This document shows, piece by piece, positions 935 to 14,262 of a stretch of DNA of 20,682 nucleotides (position 1 is its first letter; every line of letters begins with the position of its first letter). A program made the translations under genes and the position numbers. The stretch is from a virus, in IMG/VR virus record IMGVR_UViG_3300021197_000210, positions 1 to 20,682 of that record, one strand, 5' to 3'. Under the pieces are notes generated by a model, which saw only the letters and a list, made by a program, of their open reading frames with translations, was not told the DNA's origin and did not search any database.

Positions 935-1157
935 CAGCGATTACGATGAATTATTTGATAGGGTTCGTGGCAATCTAGGCGAACACTTTGGCAACTATAT
1001 GTTCATAGTAATGGATGATGATGGTGACTTATTCTATGATTATCCTAATCACAGGGTAGGCAGAATGTTATTAAAGGAAACAAAAGAGGATATGGAAGGC
1101 GATGTTCTAGATATTATTTGGGAGGAAGAAATAGAACCAGAAGAAGATGGAGATTAA
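924..1157 (+). CDS. Small acidic protein between the terminase genes, unknown function
   Basis: This 77-aa protein is strongly acidic, with an MDDDGD segment in the middle and a C-terminus made mostly of Glu and Asp. It has no signal peptide or membrane segment. It overlaps the end of the small terminase gene by 11 bases and the start of the large terminase gene by 11 bases, so it is locked into the packaging operon and translationally coupled to both. The central part (YMFIVMDDDGDLFYDY) looks like paired beta strands. I do not recognise a named family. A terminase accessory role is inferred from position only. Confidence 0.7.
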   Translation: MAINSDYDELFDRVRGNLGEHFGNYMFIVMDDDGDLFYDYPNHRVGRMLLKETKEDMEGDVLDIIWEEEIEPEEDGD

Positions 1158-2805
1158 ATTTACAAATCACCCTTTGCTTAAACCACCTACTGATGAGGAG
1201 ATAGTTCTTCTTGGTGAGAAAGACCCTAGACTTTTAACAGAACTCCACAAGGCCCATGAAGGCAGAATTGAAGCATCTGTAGAAGACCCTATCCGATATG
1301 GATTTGATTTAGATGGTTGGAACAGAATCAGAGATGGGTTAGATGAGTATGATGAGTGTTTAACACTAGGTGGTAATAGATCAGGTAAGACTACAGGGTG
1401 TGCGAAGTTAGTAATGAAGGCAGTCATGGATAGTTATGATGGCCACATTGTATGCTTCTCACAGAATGCTGACACCTCTGTAAAGGTTCAGCAGGCGGCA
1501 GTATGGGAGATGATGCCCAAGGAGTTTAAGAAAAAGACTAAAAGTATAGAGGGGTATATCAATTTCTCTATGCAGAATGGATTTACAGGAAGTTCTTTTA
1601 TCTTTCCGGATACCAGGACTAGGGTTGATTTCAAGACTTATACACAGTTCTCAAACAATCAGACTATCTTGGAGGGTTTTGAATTTGGGTTCAAGCACCC
1701 CAAAGGGCAAAACATAGGAGCATGGCTTGATGAGTATCTTGGCGATGCCTCTTTGGTAAACACTCTTAGATTCCGACTAGCGACTAGAAACTCTAAGCTA
1801 CTGATAGGGTTTACTCCGATTGATGGTTATACACCATTTATATCAGAATACCTAAAAGGAGCAGAAACCCTAGAAACACGAGAAGCTGAACTGTTATCGA
1901 ATAAGCCATTACCTGTAAAACAATATAGTAAAGAGAGAGATGCCTCTATAGTTTATCTTCATTCTGATGAAAATCCTTTCGGTGGATATGAAAGAATAGC
2001 AAAGGACTTGAAGAAAGCTCCAGAGGAAGAGATACTTGTTAGAGCATATGGTGTGCCAGTCAAGTCAATGACAACACTATTACCTTTGTTTAATACAGAG
2101 GTAAATGTTTTAGATGAAACCAAGAACAAGTACAATATGTCCTTTCCGGATATTAGTGATAAGAATGAGTTTACTTGTTATCAGGTAGTTGATCCAGCCG
2201 GTGCTAGAAACTATACAGCAATATGGGCAGGGGTAAATGAACAAGGCGAGATATACATTCGTAAGGAGTTTCCTGAAAGAGATATATATGGAGAGTGGGC
2301 ATTGTTTGGTGATCCGAAATGGAGATATGGCCCTGCCGCTAAGAAGCTTGGTTTAAATGTAGCAGGATATGCCGAAATGTTCAGAGAGATAGAAGATGAC
2401 TTAGGTGTAGATGTATTTGAGAGAATCGGTGACTCTAGATTCTTTGCAAAAGAGAATGAGAACAATGATGATTTATTCAGAGCATTTGATGATCATAACA
2501 TGAACTTCCTTGCAAGTGATGGTAGAATGGAGGAAATAGGGATCAATGCATTAGACGAATGGTTTAATTATAATCCTAATCTACCAGTAGACGAAGTCAA
2601 TAGACCACTATGCTATATACACAGATCATGCGGCAACCTAATCGAATCACTCATAAACTATGGAAGTAATGGGAAAGCAGACGAAGCTCTAAAGGATTTT
2701 TTTGATGTAATAAGATATTTAAGAATGAGTAATGGTGGTGAAGGCCCTGACCATGTAAACAAGCGGCAACTATTAACCCAATATAACCATACAGGAGGTT
2801 ACTAA
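1147..2805 (+). CDS. terL: Terminase large subunit (packaging ATPase and nuclease)
   Basis: This 552-aa protein is the motor that cuts concatemeric DNA and pumps it into the prohead through the portal. The N-terminal ATPase shows a Walker A motif GGNRSGKT at residues 75-82, a Walker B motif WLDE at 193-196 and a coupling motif LIGFTP at 219-224. The C-terminal RNase H-like nuclease shows acidic residues in VVDPAG (D349), GDSR (D429) and DFFDVIR (D517/D520). All are where a complete terminase should have them, and the length is normal. The start overlaps the previous gene and the stop overlaps the next gene's ATG by one base. The nuclease domain and neighbouring P22-like portal suggest a P22/Sf6-type relative rather than a T7-type one, but this is an impression. 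Confidence 0.95.
   Translation: MEIKFTNHPLLKPPTDEEIVLLGEKDPRLLTELHKAHEGRIEASVEDPIRYGFDLDGWNRIRDGLDEYDECLTLGGNRSGKTTGCAKLVMKAVMDSYDGHIVCFSQNADTSVKVQQAAVWEMMPKEFKKKTKSIEGYINFSMQNGFTGSSFIFPDTRTRVDFKTYTQFSNNQTILEGFEFGFKHPKGQNIGAWLDEYLGDASLVNTLRFRLATRNSKLLIGFTPIDGYTPFISEYLKGAETLETREAELLSNKPLPVKQYSKERDASIVYLHSDENPFGGYERIAKDLKKAPEEEILVRAYGVPVKSMTTLLPLFNTEVNVLDETKNKYNMSFPDISDKNEFTCYQVVDPAGARNYTAIWAGVNEQGEIYIRKEFPERDIYGEWALFGDPKWRYGPAAKKLGLNVAGYAEMFREIEDDLGVDVFERIGDSRFFAKENENNDDLFRAFDDHNMNFLASDGRMEEIGINALDEWFNYNPNLPVDEVNRPLCYIHRSCGNLIESLINYGSNGKADEALKDFFDVIRYLRMSNGGEGPDHVNKRQLLTQYNHTGGY
2793..2798 (+). promoter_or_regulatory. Strong ribosome binding site before 2805
   Basis: AGGAGG lies six bases before the ATG at 2805. 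It is one of only two perfect Shine-Dalgarno sequences in the window and supports that start. Confidence 0.7.
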
Positions 2806-3205: not shown

Positions 3206-5287
3206 ATGCAAGACACAGATATTTCGGAGTCACTTACTTATGTGACAGGAGAACCTAATGTAAACCATTTGCGCCATGCTTACGAGCAAACAGTAAATGA
3301 ACTAGAACCATATTTTGATTTATGTAGGGACTCCTACGATCAACGAAGAAACTATTGGGCAGGGAAAAGTCGTGACCTTCGCAAACATGGGGCTGATGCC
3401 TTTCCATGGGAAGGTGCTTCAGACATTGAGTCTCATGTTATCGATGAAAGGATATCAAGACTTGTTGCAATGCTTATGTCTTCATTGAGCAGAGCCAATG
3501 TTTCAGCATTTCCTGTTGAAGTAAACGATATAGCTAGATCAAAAATCGTAGGTAGTTTCATGAAGTGGATGGTTAGCTCTGGTTACATCAATCGCTTTGA
3601 GAAAGAAATGGAGCTAGGGTGTAACTATTTGTTAGAGCGAGGTATCTTAATTACTCATGTTGGTTGGCAGAGAGAGGATCGTAAATTTCTACAAGAGTTA
3701 GATATTGCACAGATTGCTCAAATGTCACCAGAGGTAGCTCAAGCTGTTGATGATCCAAGTAATGACCAGGCATTGGTTGCATTACTACAACAAACCTTTG
3801 AAGGAGTAACCGAAAAGAGAGGGTTAAAAGCCTTAAAGGAACTAAGGAAGAAAGGTTCTACAAAACTTCCAATAGTCCGAAGACAAGTAAATGCTCCTGA
3901 GGTAAAAACATTAGCACCTGACTTTGACTTTTTCTTACCACCATATGTTACTGATCCACAGAAAGCACCTTATTGTTTCTGGAGAAACTTCTATACTCCA
4001 CAGGAGTTAGAATTAAAAGTAACCACAGATGGGTGGGATGCAGACTTTGTAGCCGAAATGATTCAGAACTATCGTGGTGTTGATGTATTAGATATAGAAA
4101 AGCAACAAGAGGGTAGACGATCAAATCTTATACAAGATTATGGCTACGAAGCAGAGGAGTTAATTGAATTAATTTATGGATATCAGCGATTGATTGACCC
4201 AGAGGATGGTTCAGAAGGAATCTACTATACTGTGTTCCATAAACAATTTAGTGGGAACGAAGATGCTCCTGCTTTCGCAATTCACGAATTACTCAATGGA
4301 TATGAAGATTATCCTATCGTGGTCACAAAACTGTCAGAGGATTCTAAAAGATTGTATGACACTATGACTGCTCCTGATCTGCTTCGTGGTATTCAAAACC
4401 AAGTAAAGGTAGAAAGAGATTCACGAATTGATAGAAACTCTTTGGCAACATTGCCGCCAATCATTCACCCTGTCGGACAAGCACCAACAGACTTTGGCCC
4501 TGGTAGATATATACCTTACCGAAGAAAAGGAGACTTGGACTTTGCTCCAACACCTCCACCACCTACAGGATCAATAGAGATTGAAAGAACTCTTCAGGAA
4601 CAAGCTGATAGATTGATGGGATTAGATAATACTCCAATCAGCCAATTGAAGCTACAGTTCTTGGTTAACAAATTCCTAAAGCACTCAGCAGATGTATTAA
4701 AACTAGCTTACAAGTGTTTCCAAAGATTTGGCCCTGATAGTGTATTCTTTAGAGTAACTGGTTCTCCTGATCCACAAACATTTGGCAAAGGTGATCCAAA
4801 CGAAGACTTTGATGTTACTATATCTTACGATGTATTAAACACAGACCCTGAAACTCAAGAGAAGAAACTTGCACAAATTCAAGCACTTACTGCTATGGAT
4901 CGTAATGGTCGAATAAATGTTGATAGTTTGTTAACAGTTATAGCAAATGCAGTTGATCCTGTGTTAGCCGATCAGATTCTACAACCAGTAGAAGCCGCAC
5001 AAGAACAAGTAGTCAAACAAGTTACTGACGATCTATCTAAGATTTTTGCCGGTATTGAAATGCCTGCTAGACCAAATGGCGCTCAGGTTGCAATGCAAGT
5101 AATCCAACAATATGGTTCTCAGCCAGATATTCAAGCTAGACTACAGTCAGATGAAGCATTTGCCGCTAGGATGGAAAAATATGTTGGACAATATACCTTT
5201 ATGATGCAACAACAACAGAATGCACAAATCGGTCGTATTGGTACAGAGCCTGCTGCTATGGGTAGTGTTGACACTCAAAACATTTAG
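3206..5287 (+). CDS. Portal protein
   Basis: This 693-aa protein is the likely portal, the dodecameric ring at one capsid vertex through which DNA enters and leaves and to which tail parts attach. The N-terminal helical region contains FPWEGASDIE, a signature-like segment common in large podovirus portals. The middle has RGIQNQVKVERDSRIDRNS followed by a proline-rich turn (APTPPPPTGS) near residue 450. The C-terminal part is helical and Gln-rich (MMQQQQNAQ), consistent with a P22-like barrel or crown extension. The length agrees with P22-type portals (about 700 aa) rather than the shorter T7 type. It follows the terminase and precedes scaffold and capsid genes, as expected. The 23-base gap before it holds an AT-rich TGTTAAAAT motif but no ribosome binding site. 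Confidence 0.88.
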   Translation: MQDTDISESLTYVTGEPNVNHLRHAYEQTVNELEPYFDLCRDSYDQRRNYWAGKSRDLRKHGADAFPWEGASDIESHVIDERISRLVAMLMSSLSRANVSAFPVEVNDIARSKIVGSFMKWMVSSGYINRFEKEMELGCNYLLERGILITHVGWQREDRKFLQELDIAQIAQMSPEVAQAVDDPSNDQALVALLQQTFEGVTEKRGLKALKELRKKGSTKLPIVRRQVNAPEVKTLAPDFDFFLPPYVTDPQKAPYCFWRNFYTPQELELKVTTDGWDADFVAEMIQNYRGVDVLDIEKQQEGRRSNLIQDYGYEAEELIELIYGYQRLIDPEDGSEGIYYTVFHKQFSGNEDAPAFAIHELLNGYEDYPIVVTKLSEDSKRLYDTMTAPDLLRGIQNQVKVERDSRIDRNSLATLPPIIHPVGQAPTDFGPGRYIPYRRKGDLDFAPTPPPPTGSIEIERTLQEQADRLMGLDNTPISQLKLQFLVNKFLKHSADVLKLAYKCFQRFGPDSVFFRVTGSPDPQTFGKGDPNEDFDVTISYDVLNTDPETQEKKLAQIQALTAMDRNGRINVDSLLTVIANAVDPVLADQILQPVEAAQEQVVKQVTDDLSKIFAGIEMPARPNGAQVAMQVIQQYGSQPDIQARLQSDEAFAARMEKYVGQYTFMMQQQQNAQIGRIGTEPAAMGSVDTQNI

Positions 5288-5288
5288 T

Positions 5289-5813
5289 ATGACTCCAGAA
5301 CAGTATAGCACTAAGCGATCTGCTGAAATGCAGAATCAAATTGACATGGCTAACTTAACTAAGGCAGTTGCCTTAGAAGCTAGAGGAGAAGGTATGGATG
5401 GAATGTTTGCAGTTGCTAAAAGCATACTCAACAGACATGAACTCATAAACTCAGGCGAGGTTTTGCCATCTACATATATGCCTAATAGTGTTAACAGTAA
5501 ACCAACTATTAGTGATATCTTGTTTCATAAGGATCAGTATCAAGTATATGACTCAAAGAATAAAAGATTCAAAGATCAAAAAAACCCTCCAACTAAAGAA
5601 GATTTCCAAAAAGCCCAAGAAGCTATTCATTTAGCTTCAGATACCCATAGGGCAATGACATATATCTTGGATCGTAATTTACCAATGGATACTTTCGATG
5701 GTACAGGCTTCAGAAGAAGAGATGCTAAATACGATGCTTCTCAAGATAAAGGAACATTCATGATAGGAAACCATCAATTTAACAAAGCAGGAAGACCTGA
5801 GTTGGAAGAATAA
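5289..5813 (+). CDS. Cell wall hydrolase, SleB/CwlJ type (putative endolysin or virion hydrolase)
   Basis: The 174-aa product carries the core of the SleB/CwlJ (Hydrolase_2) family of peptidoglycan lytic enzymes. The segment VALEARGEGMDGMFAVAKSI followed by LNR at residues 27-49 matches the family signature, with E30 as the likely catalytic glutamate. C-terminal strands (GTFMIGNHQF) complete the usual small domain. It either lyses the host or opens peptidoglycan during DNA entry. I chose ATG 5289, one base after the portal stop. An in-frame ATG at 5220 inside the portal gene would add 23 residues with a basic then hydrophobic stretch resembling a signal anchor. Neither start has a ribosome binding site. 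Placement between portal and scaffold, far from the holin-like genes, is unusual for a textbook lysis cassette. Confidence 0.82.
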   Translation: MTPEQYSTKRSAEMQNQIDMANLTKAVALEARGEGMDGMFAVAKSILNRHELINSGEVLPSTYMPNSVNSKPTISDILFHKDQYQVYDSKNKRFKDQKNPPTKEDFQKAQEAIHLASDTHRAMTYILDRNLPMDTFDGTGFRRRDAKYDASQDKGTFMIGNHQFNKAGRPELEE

Positions 5814-7167: not shown

Positions 7168-8166
7168 ATGGCAATTTCAGATACATTCAATCCGGCTTTA
7201 CAGCCAGTTACAACCCAAGGGCCGAGTGTTTCCAATCGTGAGGATTTGACAGATGTCTTAACTATCCTTGCGCCAGAAGAAACTCCAGCTCTTTCATCTG
7301 CCAACAAACAGAAAGCAAATGCTACTTTTGTTGAGTGGACAGTCGATGGCCTAGCCGATCCCTCAACAGCAGGTATTAGCGAAGGTGCTGATGTTACAAC
7401 ATTCACAGACCAATTCGCAAGCCGCGCTCGTCTTGGCAATTACATTCAGAAGTTTCGCAGAGACTTCATGGTTTCCGATTTACAGGAAGCTGTTGACTCT
7501 GTAGGCCCTGCTAAAGTTGCACAAGCTGAATCAAAAGCTATTCGTGAATTGAAAAGAGATGTTGAAGCAACAATTCTTTCAGACAATGATCGTCAAGCAG
7601 AAACAGGTGCAGCCCCTTACAAAATGCGAGGACTTGGTAAGTTCTTGGATGGCGCTAATGCTGACATCCCTGCTGATTACGAAACTCCTGCAGCATCTAT
7701 TGCTACTACAGGTTCAGCTACAACAGAGACTGAGTTCAACACAATCATTCGTTCGATCTATCGTGCAAATGGTGAAGCTAACAACTTAGTTCTTATCGCT
7801 GATACATCACTTCGTAAGCAAATCGCAGACTATGCTCGCTTAGGAAACCAAACTGAAACTGTTCGTAGTGTAAACTATGATGGTGATAACTCAACAATTA
7901 AATTATCTGTTGAGATTTACCAATCAGATTTCGGTATCGTTTCTATCGTTAACATGAATCCAACAACCAACCCAGAGACAGTTTCAGGATCAACAACTAA
8001 TCACGATCGTGGTTATATGATCAACCCTGACTACTATGGTATTCACGAGCTTATCCCTATGGGATCATCTCGCCTACCTAACATGGGTGGTGGTGAACGA
8101 GGATTTGTTGACTGTGCATTAACACTTGGTGTTTATGCTCCAGCGGCTCATGGTATAATCAAATAA
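7168..8166 (+). CDS. Major capsid protein, SU10-type (HK97 fold)
   Basis: The 332-aa protein is the likely shell subunit. Its beginning (REDLTDVLTILAPEETPALS), the glycine/aspartate-rich loop with FVEWTVDGLADP, the long helix with AESKAIRELKRDVEATIL, and the C-terminal segment with GYMINPDYYGIHELIP match what I know of the SU10 major head protein family (Pfam family formerly DUF5309). The length is usual for this family. No long N-terminal propeptide is seen; the acidic scaffold is a separate gene. It follows the scaffold gene after 19 AT-rich bases that lack a Shine-Dalgarno sequence, which is striking for what should be the most highly translated gene. A decoration-like gene follows. Confidence 0.88.
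   Translation: MAISDTFNPALQPVTTQGPSVSNREDLTDVLTILAPEETPALSSANKQKANATFVEWTVDGLADPSTAGISEGADVTTFTDQFASRARLGNYIQKFRRDFMVSDLQEAVDSVGPAKVAQAESKAIRELKRDVEATILSDNDRQAETGAAPYKMRGLGKFLDGANADIPADYETPAASIATTGSATTETEFNTIIRSIYRANGEANNLVLIADTSLRKQIADYARLGNQTETVRSVNYDGDNSTIKLSVEIYQSDFGIVSIVNMNPTTNPETVSGSTTNHDRGYMINPDYYGIHELIPMGSSRLPNMGGGERGFVDCALTLGVYAPAAHGIIK
8151..8159 (+). promoter_or_regulatory. Candidate extended -10 promoter at the end of the capsid gene
   Basis: TGGTATAAT overlaps the last codons of the capsid gene and ends 27 bases before the next ATG. It has no good -35 element. A promoter here would give the decoration-like gene its own short transcript, ending at the terminator at 8681-8718. Because it lies in coding sequence it may be chance. 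Confidence 0.3.
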
Positions 8167-11528: not shown

Positions 11529-11686
11529 TGGAAGAGACACTACAGAGATTATCAGTAGGAGTATTTGGTTGGATCGCAACTGATACACTACAAGACATTG
11601 ATTTAATAATGGGGATAATGTCCAAGGGTGTTATAATAGGGTTAACTACTTTATCAATACTTAAACTAATCCAAGAATTAAAATGA
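11528..11686 (+). CDS. Mini membrane protein, 52 aa, holin-like candidate
   Basis: This short gene encodes METLQ-type acidic start residues (MEETLQRLSV), an amphipathic first half, and one hydrophobic helix at about residues 33-48 (KGVIIGLTTLSILKLI). Its ATG overlaps the preceding stop by one base and its stop overlaps the following ATG as ATGA, an arrangement that strongly supports translation despite its size. It is immediately upstream of the three-helix holin-like gene, so it could be a second holin, an antiholin or a small accessory membrane protein. No family is recognised. Confidence 0.65.
   Translation: MEETLQRLSVGVFGWIATDTLQDIDLIMGIMSKGVIIGLTTLSILKLIQELK
11629..11637 (+). promoter_or_regulatory. 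Candidate extended -10 promoter before the holin-like gene
   Basis: TGTTATAAT is identical to the motif at 6029 and ends 46 bases before the holin-like ATG, almost the same distance as the scaffold example. It lies inside the 52-aa gene and has no clear -35. A promoter here would give extra or late transcription of the lysis block. Confidence 0.35.
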
Positions 11687-12087
11687 CAACAGAACTTATA
11701 GCAATGCTCGGAGGAGGTGCAAGTGGCTTTCTCTTTAAATTAATTGGTACAATGGTAACTTCTCAGCAAGCCAATGTTGATAACTTAATTAAGAAGCAGA
11801 AAGCATCAGACGAAAGTGCAGATGCCGCGGCAAAGAGAACCGGTGATGGTGGTGCTATTGTTCGTAGAATTATTGTAGTAACAGTTTTATTCGGAGTAAT
11901 TATAGCTCCATTCATCCTAGCTCATAGTAACGAAGGGGTCACAGTAGCTAATGAATACAGTAAATGGTTTGGCTTAATTAAAGGCACTAGCTACCAAACA
12001 TTGCATGGGTATGTTATACTACCAGAGATAAGACAAACAGTATTGGCTATCGTAGGATTCTACTTTGGCTCATCATCAGTTAAATAA
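11683..12087 (+). CDS. Holin-like membrane protein (three hydrophobic segments)
   Basis: The 134-aa product looks like the phage and gene-transfer-agent holins of about 130 aa with three membrane segments, which collect in the inner membrane and open it at the time of lysis. Hydrophobic segments are at about residues 5-26 (amphipathic, LIAMLGGGASGFLFKLIGTM), 62-80 (RIIVVTVLFGVIIAPFILA) and 117-130. A basic, Ala/Asp-rich linker (KKQKASDESADAAAKRTG) separates the first two. It overlaps the 52-aa gene as ATGA. The hydrolase that it would serve is about 6 kb upstream. Alternatives are another small membrane protein. Confidence 0.62.
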   Translation: MTTELIAMLGGGASGFLFKLIGTMVTSQQANVDNLIKKQKASDESADAAAKRTGDGGAIVRRIIVVTVLFGVIIAPFILAHSNEGVTVANEYSKWFGLIKGTSYQTLHGYVILPEIRQTVLAIVGFYFGSSSVK

Positions 12088-12109: not shown

Positions 12110-12901
12110 ATGGATAAGAAAAGAGCAAAGCAAGAACTGCGAACTCTCAGGGATTCAATCTCTGAAGTGCTTGGCGAAAAGAATAATCAAGCTGATTCCT
12201 CAGACATTAAGGAAAGTATTGAGCAAGCTCAAGAGTCTGCTAGAGCAGGGGCTAAAGCTCTTAAAAAATCTCTTATAGAGAGGATCAAGGAATTACCAGT
12301 TGTAACACAAGTATCTCAGCTAGGGGCTGCAGGTACTGTTGCTGTGTCTACTGCGGCAGTAACTCAAGTAGATATTGCCCAAGATCGTACAGAGGTATTT
12401 GTAGCAGAAGTGGCCCAGGATGTCATTGAAGAAAGATTTGAAGTTCCAATGTTTATTGATAACTTTGTGGACTTTGCTACTTTAAATGATTGGGGACAAA
12501 AGGTTATTACCGAGAAGATTTCTGAGGCACAGGCTTTCGTAGCCGAGGTTTCCGAACCACCACAGACTTCTCAATCATCTTCTGCTCCTGAGGACACCAA
12601 ACCTGCACCCTCTGCTTCTTCACAAGATAGTTCTTCCGATAAGTCTTCTGAGCCGAAAGATAGTAGCACAGAGCAAAAATCAGAAGAAAAGGAATCCAAA
12701 TCAGATAAAACATCCTCAGAGCCTACTGAAGAGCCTAAGGAGGTCAAGTCTAATGATGATACTAAGGAAGAAACAAAAGAGCCTACAGAGCAATCTGAGG
12801 CTAAATCTGATGCCATAGAACAGGTAAACACACCATACGAACCAATGGATGATGATATAAAGCCTCACACAGACACAAGACCAGTATCCCCAATATTATG
12901 A
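12110..12901 (+). CDS. Coiled-coil protein with long Ser/Glu/Lys/Pro tail, unknown function
   Basis: This 263-aa protein has a distinctive layout. Residues 1-60 are charged helix, residues 62-88 are a moderately hydrophobic Val/Ala/Gly/Thr stretch (LPVVTQVSQLGAAGTVAVST), residues about 95-145 form another helical region, and residues 149-237 are low-complexity Ser, Glu, Lys, Asp, Pro and Thr. There is no lipobox. It lies in the membrane-protein block, and its stop overlaps the next ATG as ATGA. A membrane-anchored, periplasm-spanning role is one idea, with a spanin substitute as a speculative case. An internal virion protein with a disordered tail is another. A 62-codon frame starting at 12090 overlaps it and looks like a shadow. 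Confidence 0.7.
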   Translation: MDKKRAKQELRTLRDSISEVLGEKNNQADSSDIKESIEQAQESARAGAKALKKSLIERIKELPVVTQVSQLGAAGTVAVSTAAVTQVDIAQDRTEVFVAEVAQDVIEERFEVPMFIDNFVDFATLNDWGQKVITEKISEAQAFVAEVSEPPQTSQSSSAPEDTKPAPSASSQDSSSDKSSEPKDSSTEQKSEEKESKSDKTSSEPTEEPKEVKSNDDTKEETKEPTEQSEAKSDAIEQVNTPYEPMDDDIKPHTDTRPVSPIL

Positions 12902-13062
12902 TAGAGTACATTTTTAGTAACTACAAAGACGATCTGCTCGCTATGGCATTTGCATACATTGGTATAATATCTATTATAATGATGTTCTTACCAAAGAATA
13001 ATATATTGGTAAAATCATTCAAGAGCATCGCATCAATCTTTACATCCCTTTTCAAAAAATGA
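12898..13062 (+). CDS. Mini membrane protein, 54 aa
   Basis: The protein begins MIEYIFSNYKDDL, has one clear hydrophobic helix at about residues 14-31 (LAMAFAYIGIISIIMMFL) and ends in a basic amphipathic segment (KSFKSIASIFTSLFKK). It overlaps both neighbours as ATGA, so it is translationally coupled on both sides. It would place a short N-terminus outside or inside the membrane with a basic tail likely in the cytoplasm. Function is unknown; a holin, antiholin or partner of the next membrane protein are all possible. Confidence 0.68.
   Translation: MIEYIFSNYKDDLLAMAFAYIGIISIIMMFLPKNNILVKSFKSIASIFTSLFKK
12960..12968 (+). promoter_or_regulatory. Weak candidate extended -10 motif
   Basis: TGGTATAAT lies inside the 54-aa gene, 91 bases before the ATG at 13059. 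It lacks a recognisable -35 and may be chance. It would transcribe the PEP-CTERM-like gene and the basic mini-gene cassette. Confidence 0.22.
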
Positions 13063-13349
13063 GCCACGAATTTTCAGAACTTAATATCAACAATGACTCC
13101 GACTATGGTTGGGGCGATAGCATTACATCAACTAATTACAATTACTTTTATGTACCATCTATACCGGAGTGGGCATATAGTGAATTTGATGGATTATTAT
13201 ACGAAGGAACTCAGTACAATTGGAGTGAAGTAGATTATAGGCTTTCAGTTGATTATAATAGTGTACCTGAACCAGCAGATGCAGGATTCATTGGTGCAGT
13301 ATTAGTAGGAGTTTTTGTAGCATTTACTTATTTTAAAACAAAAAAATAA
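13059..13349 (+). CDS. C-tail-anchored protein with PEP-CTERM-like end
   Basis: The 96-aa product has an acidic, aromatic N-terminal region of about 66 residues (ten or so Tyr and four Trp) without a signal peptide. It then has VPEP at residues 69-72, one hydrophobic helix at 76-92 (GFIGAVLVGVFVAFTYF) and a basic end, KTKK. VPEP, helix and basic tail in that order at the very C-terminus is the layout of the PEP-CTERM sorting signal that exosortases recognise in many Gram-negative bacteria. Two things do not fit well: no N-terminal signal peptide is seen, and the tail has Lys rather than the usual Arg cluster. It may simply be a tail-anchored membrane protein. The ATG overlaps the previous stop as ATGA. 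Confidence 0.72.
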   Translation: MSHEFSELNINNDSDYGWGDSITSTNYNYFYVPSIPEWAYSEFDGLLYEGTQYNWSEVDYRLSVDYNSVPEPADAGFIGAVLVGVFVAFTYFKTKK

Positions 13350-13457: not shown

Positions 13458-13541
13458 ATGCCACAAGGAAAAGGAACATATGGAAGTAAAAGAGGTAGAC
13501 CACCTACAAAGAGAAAGATGAAGAAGAAAGGTAAGTGCTAG
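13458..13541 (+). CDS. Basic mini-protein with AT-hook-like motif, 27 aa
   Basis: The peptide begins MPQGKGTYGSKRGRPPTKRK and ends KMKKKGKC. Its start resembles tiny proteins I have seen in metagenomic marine phage late operons. The KRGRPPTKR core matches the AT-hook consensus, in which Arg-Gly-Arg-Pro lies in the minor groove of AT-rich DNA, and this genome is AT-rich. The next gene's GTG overlaps its TAG by one base. DNA binding or compaction is inferred from the motif and charge, not shown. Confidence 0.62.
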   Translation: MPQGKGTYGSKRGRPPTKRKMKKKGKC

Positions 13542-13705
13542 TGGGCAAGTTATGTGCTAGAGGTAAGGCAGCCGCCAAAAGAAAGTATGATGTATACCCA
13601 TCAGCTTATGCTAACTCATATGCAGTTCGTGTATGTAAGGGGCAAGTTAAAGGCCCTGATGGTAAGAAGAAGACTGCTAGTGGATATAAGAGAAAGAAAG
13701 TATGA
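13541..13705 (+). CDS. Basic cysteine-containing mini-protein, 54 aa, GTG start
   Basis: Translated from GTG 13541, the product starts MGKLCARGKAAAKRKYDVYP and continues with SAYANSYAVRVCKG and a basic Gly/Lys tail. This pattern, with CARGKAAAKRK, YPSAYAN and VCKG, recurs in small proteins of marine phages and other aquatic viruses as far as I remember. The GTG start is chosen because it shares a base with the previous stop and no ATG lies at the conserved beginning. The stop overlaps the next ATG as ATGA. Two cysteines are 27 residues apart and might bind a metal. Function is unknown. Confidence 0.65.
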   Translation: MGKLCARGKAAAKRKYDVYPSAYANSYAVRVCKGQVKGPDGKKKTASGYKRKKV

Positions 13706-13938
13706 GCCTCAAAAGATGGCATCAAGAGAAATGGGTGGATGTTAAAACCGGTAAACCTTGTGGGAGAAAATCAGTCAAGGGAAGTAGCCGAGCATATCCA
13801 GCTTGTAGACCATCGAAGAGAGTTAGCTCAAAAACTCCAAAGACTCAATCAGAGATGTCTTCGGCAGAGAAAGCAAAGTTCAAAAGAACAAAGACAAGTA
13901 GTAAAAGAATTTCATATCAACACAAAAGAAAGAAGTAA
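13702..13938 (+). CDS. Basic mini-protein, DUF5872-like, 78 aa
   Basis: The protein begins MSLKRWHQEKWVDVKTGKPC and contains YPACRPSKRVSSKTPKTQSE and AEKAKFKRTKTSSKRISY. These segments match what I recall of a virus-associated family of unknown function (DUF5872). It is strongly basic, with two cysteines 17 residues apart and no membrane segment. It overlaps the preceding gene as ATGA, and its stop shares a base with the next ATG. A role in nucleic acid binding inside the virion or in the infected cell is inferred from charge only. Confidence 0.75.
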   Translation: MSLKRWHQEKWVDVKTGKPCGRKSVKGSSRAYPACRPSKRVSSKTPKTQSEMSSAEKAKFKRTKTSSKRISYQHKRKK

Positions 13939-14048
13939 TGGGTAAGGGGATGCAACCAAAGGCTGGATACAATCAAAAATTGTATGAACAGAATTACGAT
14001 GCAATCTTTCGTAAAAAGAAAAAGCATGAGAAAAGAACACAAAAGTAA
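13938..14048 (+). CDS. Basic mini-protein, 36 aa
   Basis: The peptide is MGKGMQPKAGYNQKLYEQNY followed by DAIFRKKKKHEKRTQK. Its pattern (GKGM, P-K-GY, NYDAIF, poly-Lys) resembles small proteins found beside DUF5872/DUF6321-like genes. It starts on the last base of the previous stop and overlaps the next gene. It has no cysteine, unlike its larger neighbours. Function is unknown. Confidence 0.6.
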   Translation: MGKGMQPKAGYNQKLYEQNYDAIFRKKKKHEKRTQK

Positions 14049-14262
14049 AAAAGGTGGACTAACTGCCGAAGGCAGAGCTTACTTTAAAAGAAAGACTGGT
14101 GCTAATTTAAAGCCACCAGTTACTGAGTCTAATCCTACTGGTAAAAAGAAAGCCAGAAAGAAATCATTTTGTGCTAGAATGTCTGGTGTTAAAGGGCCAA
14201 TGAAAGACAAGAAAGGAAGACCCACAAGAAAGGCATTAGCCCTTCGTAGATGGAAATGCTAA
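14026..14262 (+). CDS. Basic mini-protein, DUF6321-like, 78 aa
   Basis: The product contains KSKKGGLTAEGRAYFKRKTG, then NLKPPVTESNP, KSFCARMSGVKGPMKDKKGR and a terminal LALRRWKC. This ordered set is one I associate with the virus-enriched DUF6321 family of unknown function. I choose ATG 14026 (MRKEHKSKKGG) because the conserved part starts there; in-frame ATGs at 13984 and 13999 would lengthen it by up to 14 residues within the preceding gene. It is very basic with two cysteines. It ends at 14262 and the tail nozzle gene starts at the next base. Confidence 0.78.
   Translation: MRKEHKSKKGGLTAEGRAYFKRKTGANLKPPVTESNPTGKKKARKKSFCARMSGVKGPMKDKKGRPTRKALALRRWKC

Follow-up and report, generated by a model that had tools for sequence, protein, structure and literature searches.

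Exosortase/PEP-CTERM sorting is widespread in polysaccharide-making Gram-negative bacteria, and the locus described here raises the question of whether a phage supplies such a system with a substrate of its own. The window (i.e. the whole 20,682-base IMG/VR record analysed) is the structural half of a podovirus-like phage, whose nearest database relative is phage C75C1 (a record without a host; terminase 75%, portal 70%, capsid 67%). A first-pass annotation had proposed that one small gene in it, 13059, encodes a PEP-CTERM-like membrane protein. The best overall explanation of our results is that this gene probably encodes a phage substrate for a host exosortase. The features involved are collected in Table 1.

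Table 1. Features of the window and of the related large-phage cassette
Feature	Position	Strand	Basis
Terminase	1147-2805		
Portal	3206-5287		
Major capsid protein	7168-8166		
134-aa membrane protein with a holin-like layout (phrog_38283, of unknown function), adjoining the cassette upstream	11683..12087	+	
263-aa cassette partner; N-terminus charged and helical, middle weakly hydrophobic, plus an acidic low-complexity part rich in Ser and Glu	12110..12901	+	
54-aa single-TM cassette partner with amphipathic cationic C-terminus	12898..13062	+	alignment A3
Type A phage protein of 96 aa, PEP-CTERM-like, with an acidic N-domain and without signal peptide	13059..13349	+	ORF, alignment A4, slot census
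VPEP codons (residues 69-72), presumed exosortase recognition motif and tail-exchange boundary	13263..13274	+	
C-terminal transmembrane helix and Lys-rich end (residues 73-96)	13275..13346	+	hydropathy; model helix 72-95
Tail genes	reaching 20491		
Large-phage cassette and barrel gene	L289:1748-5714; L292-L313 around barrel gene		

Gene 13059 closes a coupled run of three genes (12110, 12898 and 13059), in which successive genes share ATGA start/stop overlaps (at 12898-12901 and 13059-13062), as expected for a translated, coupled gene. Of the 43 homologous loci, 39 contain the 12110 gene and several of the other four are cut short; the upstream 11683 gene is also kept in relatives that lack the cassette. 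Downstream of the PEP gene, before the tail gene is reached, the window encodes a run of small, very basic proteins (13535-14262; DUF5872 and DUF6321), DUF6321 being known in PHROGs as the C-terminal part of larger phage proteins. The endolysin slot after the portal differs among relatives, with a protein of the cell-wall-hydrolase type and weak PHROG endolysin matches in the window (5220-5813) and a lysozyme-like protein, recognized by eye, in L048 (5299-6042). In L024, a 94-aa membrane ORF (7452-7733) is inserted between the 12898 and PEP genes.

The 96-aa ORF bears out the tail described in the first-pass annotation, i.e. VPEP, a C-terminal helix and a Lys tail, both in its sequence and by hydropathy. 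Its best 19-residue hydrophobic stretch starts at residue 74, 24 residues follow VPEP and the protein ends in FKTKK, so that PEP motif, transmembrane helix and basic end are all present in the order typical of these tails. The missing signal peptide, which the same annotation had counted against its proposal, is real: the N-terminus (MSHEFSELNINNDSDYGWG) is acidic and hydrophilic by eye, and residues 1-68 contain one Arg, no Lys and 12 Asp/Glu. An upstream start supplying a signal peptide was considered and rejected, as the in-frame reading is INLYIPFQK-MSHE and CTT stands where type B loci (see below) have their ATG, leaving the window protein without such a start. The protein gave no hit to PF07589 or TIGR02595, and its best NCBIfam match, floc_PepA, scored 14.2 bits where the cut-off is 80. 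The structural model of type A is only moderately confident (mean pLDDT 68.5; pTM 0.37). Judged by its sequence, the window protein is a signal-peptide-less PEP-CTERM variant and, as it lacks the signal peptide and falls below the profile cut-offs, we do not count it among the strict members.

A first homology search retrieved 43 IMG/VR contigs with relatives, all with VPEP, although one of the seeds itself contained the motif (DYNSVPEP). For this reason the search was redone from motif-blind anchors (the capsid protein, MCP, and the upstream gene 12898), which removed seed bias as an explanation. The 12898-anchored search and the earlier loci together yielded 67 distinct products of the slot, two of them (L145 and L181) cut short or damaged. 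All 65 distinct products with the C-terminus covered display [VI]PEx followed by a helix and a K/R end, with an exact PEP in 50 (VPEP 39, IPEP 11) and other forms in the rest (IPEM 7, IPEL 3, IPES 3, VPES 1, IPEQ 1). Homologues that keep the helix and lose VPEP had been named in advance as a finding that would speak against a PEP-CTERM reading; [VI]PE was never lost, and the last P was replaced in 15 of the 65. The comparison set consisted of 2866 distinct ORFs (50 aa or longer, both strands) from the same phage loci. A C-terminal hydrophobic stretch with a basic end was present in 429 of them, and the complete [VI]PEx-helix-K/R end in none outside the slot proteins. Together with the slot census, this rules out a chance motif. 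The codons of the motif Glu are evenly divided (32 GAA and 32 GAG), so it is the residue and not the DNA that is conserved. An alignment of 49 sequences (A4), reaching down to about 31% identity, retained only M1, G45, Y53, W55, E57, R61, P70 and E71 as invariant positions, with P72 kept in 90% or more. Type A proteins range from 65 to 118 aa. In L019, L024, L032 and L033 the tail gains a cationic amphipathic segment after the helix (KGINVKDTVLGGIKSIYNKITKK), which resembles the C-terminus of the 12898 protein.

The tail also behaves as a module. The slot proteins of L010 and L002 have N-domains that are 98% identical and tails that are only 24% identical (VPEPSFYGLVLGFSLLLLTMIKRRK and VPEPADAGFIGAVLVGIFVAFCYFKNKGK, respectively), while those of L036 and L025 show the converse, with identical tails on N-domains of 45% identity; 119 pairs resemble the former case and 36 the latter. 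The boundary of the swap lies exactly at VPEP, a break that is expected if motif, helix and basic end form one functional signal. Bacterial PEP-CTERM sets likewise combine a fast-diverging N-domain with a tail common to unrelated proteins (PMC12188702), and the N-domains of the phage family diverge fast in the same manner, with unrelated proteins sharing a tail.

Profile matches and signal peptides, absent from the window protein, were found among its relatives. In a first alignment of 28 members, PF07589 matched 17 and TIGR02595 15 (E up to 1, most below cut-off). The PEP-CTERM profile check suggested in the first-pass annotation thus came out negative for the window protein and positive for some relatives (L157, L289 and L308). 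The close relative L157, itself a type A protein without signal peptide, passes both cut-offs (PF07589, 21.8 > 20.7; TIGR02595, 21.4 > 16), and its tail (VPEPSTYALLAGFAVLIFTMIKRRNK) is near the PEP-CTERM tails of an Opitutae metagenome-assembled genome (MAG), G001 (e.g. VPEPSTYALLGGLFALSFVAMRRRK). In 15 loci the slot is occupied by a different protein of about 205 residues, type B, which in all 15 starts at an ATG inside the 12898 gene, 25 nt ahead of that gene's end; the ATG follows an AAGGAG-like site. Its N-terminus is signal-peptide-like by eye (e.g. MHIYLQKIKFLLAPLLFVSIAWGA) and its tail is of the same kind as in type A. Type B contains a predicted beta-sandwich domain of about 150 residues, for which Foldseek returned PDB matches all above E 1e-3 (TM up to ~0.5) and BFVD a single unnamed viral match (5e-8); the resemblance to CBM, flocculin and collagen-binding-type domains is generic and was not used as evidence. 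L099 joins a related protein with a signal peptide to a tail (GLLMGLCLLTLTLIKRK) that elsewhere sits on type A. By eye, signal peptides were recognized in the type B loci, in L099 and in the large phages L289-L313. These relatives, with curated thresholds passed, Arg/Lys tails and signal peptides in some, give strong support to the original description of a PEP-CTERM-like phage protein, and we consider the tail of the slot proteins very probably to be a PEP-CTERM-type sorting signal.

Type B relatives led to other, larger marine phages (contigs up to 141 kb), e.g. L304, whose terminase matches phrog_2, which we take to be of T4-like type. The gene order in these phages is a 12110-like gene, a 12898-like gene, the PEP-CTERM protein and a barrel-type protein, and three of the loci carry a second PEP-CTERM protein. 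The 12898 HMM finds a counterpart beside the large-phage PEP-CTERM genes (E 3e-12 to 8e-7); for 12110 the HMM values are weaker (E 1.4e-6 to 1e-3) and affected by compositional bias, and the proposed homology is a weak one that draws on these scores and on position. The large-phage PEP-CTERM proteins combine a signal peptide with a textbook tail (e.g. VPEPSIYALLFGWAAFLYVAINRKNA and IPEPSSYALLAGFAVFLYIAIKRR), and those of L289 (PF07589, 21.8; TIGR02595, 18.5; both past cut-off) and L308 (PF07589, 23.5, past cut-off) are, by sequence, full PEP-CTERM members. The barrel-type protein appears to be a secreted outer-membrane protein (PF10082, E 0.0016, below cut-off). Neither the type B domain nor the barrel was found in class-level host genomes (286 genomes each), and a scan of 50,697 phage records gave no type A, large-phage type B or barrel proteins.

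A search of 18 phage records for an exosortase found none; the enzyme, if any, must therefore be that of the host. A scan of 84,980 species genomes based on the capsid alignment yielded two contigs, one in the Opitutae MAG G001 and one in a Rickettsiales MAG; membership of a phage contig in a MAG is weak evidence of a host, and neither contig has a slot gene in view, the G001 contig (capsid relative of 63% identity) ending before the slot. A likely host without exosortase was also listed as contrary evidence in the first-pass annotation; G001, the only plausible genome link, encodes two exosortases and has 14 PEP-CTERM matches that exceed the cut-off. Within its order, an exosortase is present in 93 of 132 genomes. 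None was found in the Rickettsiales MAG or in the 32 genomes of its order. The search for CRISPR spacers, also proposed in the first-pass annotation, found none, the short matches in the order of G001 being without flanking repeats, and among further MCP matches in Verrucomicrobiota a close one occurred in G001 only. Related major capsid proteins are present on three contigs of G001 (C43, C56 and C23; 63%, 29% and 28% identity), which indicates either several phages or a contaminated bin. On this circumstantial evidence, the host is likely to belong to Opitutae or to another exosortase-bearing group.

These results suggest the following scheme. The protein would be made from the structural-gene operon, coupled to its envelope-type partners 12110 and 12898, and its position makes a late timing in infection probable. 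Once inserted in the inner membrane, it would expose its acidic N-domain on the outer side and keep its basic tail on the inner side. By the positive-inside rule, the short acidic N-tail of type A would be transferred outwards. Export could proceed via a Sec signal peptide in some lineages; for the window version, which lacks one, a YidC/Sec-type transfer of a short N-tail nearly free of Lys and Arg must be assumed. Cleavage at the PEP motif by a host exosortase would follow, passing the N-domain to the outer surface or its polysaccharide, and we regard actual processing by this enzyme as probable. As for purpose, our preferred guess, offered tentatively and by analogy, is a surface mask. Like the lipoprotein Llp of T5, which blocks adsorption to infected cells and debris (PMC9586334), the phage protein might block re-adsorption to the infected cell and its debris. 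Masking would fit the exchangeable outside domains and the outer-membrane barrel of the larger phages. The uses put forward in the first-pass annotation, such as hijacking or jamming the host's sorting system or marking infected cells, are likewise hypotheses. By analogy with the superinfection-exclusion lipoproteins Llp and Cor, these may be small phage proteins that use a host anchoring route to the outer envelope. Llp, however, is a lipoprotein made early, whereas the protein described here would be anchored through an exosortase signal and is encoded among the structural genes.

One competing explanation, an ordinary tail-anchored inner-membrane protein in which PE is no more than a helix cap unrelated to exosortases, would account for a window version that lacks a signal peptide and falls below all profile cut-offs. 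We consider it unlikely, since PE is invariant while helix, tail and N-domain have been exchanged or have diverged, syntenic relatives pass PEP-CTERM cut-offs or have signal peptides, and the other ORFs of these phages with a C-terminal helix never show the motif. A decoy is equally improbable in our estimation. Here a small, abundant substrate would saturate or block the host exosortase, host PEP-CTERM proteins and matrix would no longer be maintained and progeny release would be eased. The tiny size of type A, with the motif among its few invariant features, agrees with this, as does a third motif residue relaxed in some members, which an inhibitor might tolerate; but a mere decoy would need neither the folded beta domain and signal peptide of type B nor the barrel protein and occasional second PEP-CTERM protein of the large phages, and the N-domain is itself conserved (Y53, W55, E57 and R61).

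A role in lysis deserves comparison too, as the product is a membrane protein encoded in a late operon, close behind the holin-like 11683 and translationally coupled to a cationic membrane protein. Together with 12898 and 12110 it could disrupt the outer membrane like a spanin, PEP-CTERM processing taking the place of the lipobox. A regular-expression search of the window protein and of all forward ORFs in 13 loci (the window and 12 related ones) found no lipobox; this agrees with a lysis role and is also consistent with a cassette that replaces the lipoprotein route. A match to an ordinary holin or spanin family, which the first-pass annotation had listed as contrary evidence, did not turn up when the window protein was compared with Pfam, NCBIfam and PHROGs. 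Unlike holins and spanins, moreover, the slot proteins have a long acidic outside domain that is exchangeable, and its swap for a beta-sandwich would be unexpected in a spanin. The whole cassette is absent from relatives such as phage C75C1, and the coiled part of 12110 precedes its weak hydrophobic stretch, unlike the arrangement in an i-spanin. We therefore hold a lysis protein to be no likelier than the two preceding explanations, and retain that of a substrate for the host exosortase.

Set against known PEP-CTERM/exosortase proteins (PF07589, TIGR02595), the slot proteins share the tripartite layout of VPEP, helix and basic C-terminus, and, among relatives from this slot or cassette, some score above the curated thresholds and some carry an N-terminal signal peptide. 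They differ in being phage-encoded, in a structural operon with two partner genes and with no exosortase found in the phage records; the window version moreover lacks a signal peptide and lies below the cut-offs, and the last P is relaxed in a quarter of the variants. In the literature searched, mostly by titles and abstracts and with partial coverage, there was no report of phage-encoded PEP-CTERM proteins, only papers on host genes. The chances seem about even that two phage lineages, one podovirus-like of about 38 kb and one larger with a T4-like terminase, share a mobile envelope cassette for a host-exosortase substrate. The PEP-CTERM route would then take the place of lipoproteins in putting phage proteins on the host surface; the outside domains would be interchangeable, and the larger phages would add an outer-membrane barrel.

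Direct evidence of exosortase cleavage is thin: in Nostoc, a peptide covering the PEP-CTERM domain was undetected in either strain (PMC12188702), and a study of Aquincola states that the role of VPEP still has to be defined (PMC9850573). Given their tiny size, naturally varying motif and natural tail swaps, the phage substrates would offer compact reporters of which residues matter. Our findings suggest that uncultured marine phages borrow the host exosortase late in infection and, if this is true, they would point to a lipoprotein-independent remodelling of the infected-cell surface in marine bacteria that are hard to culture.
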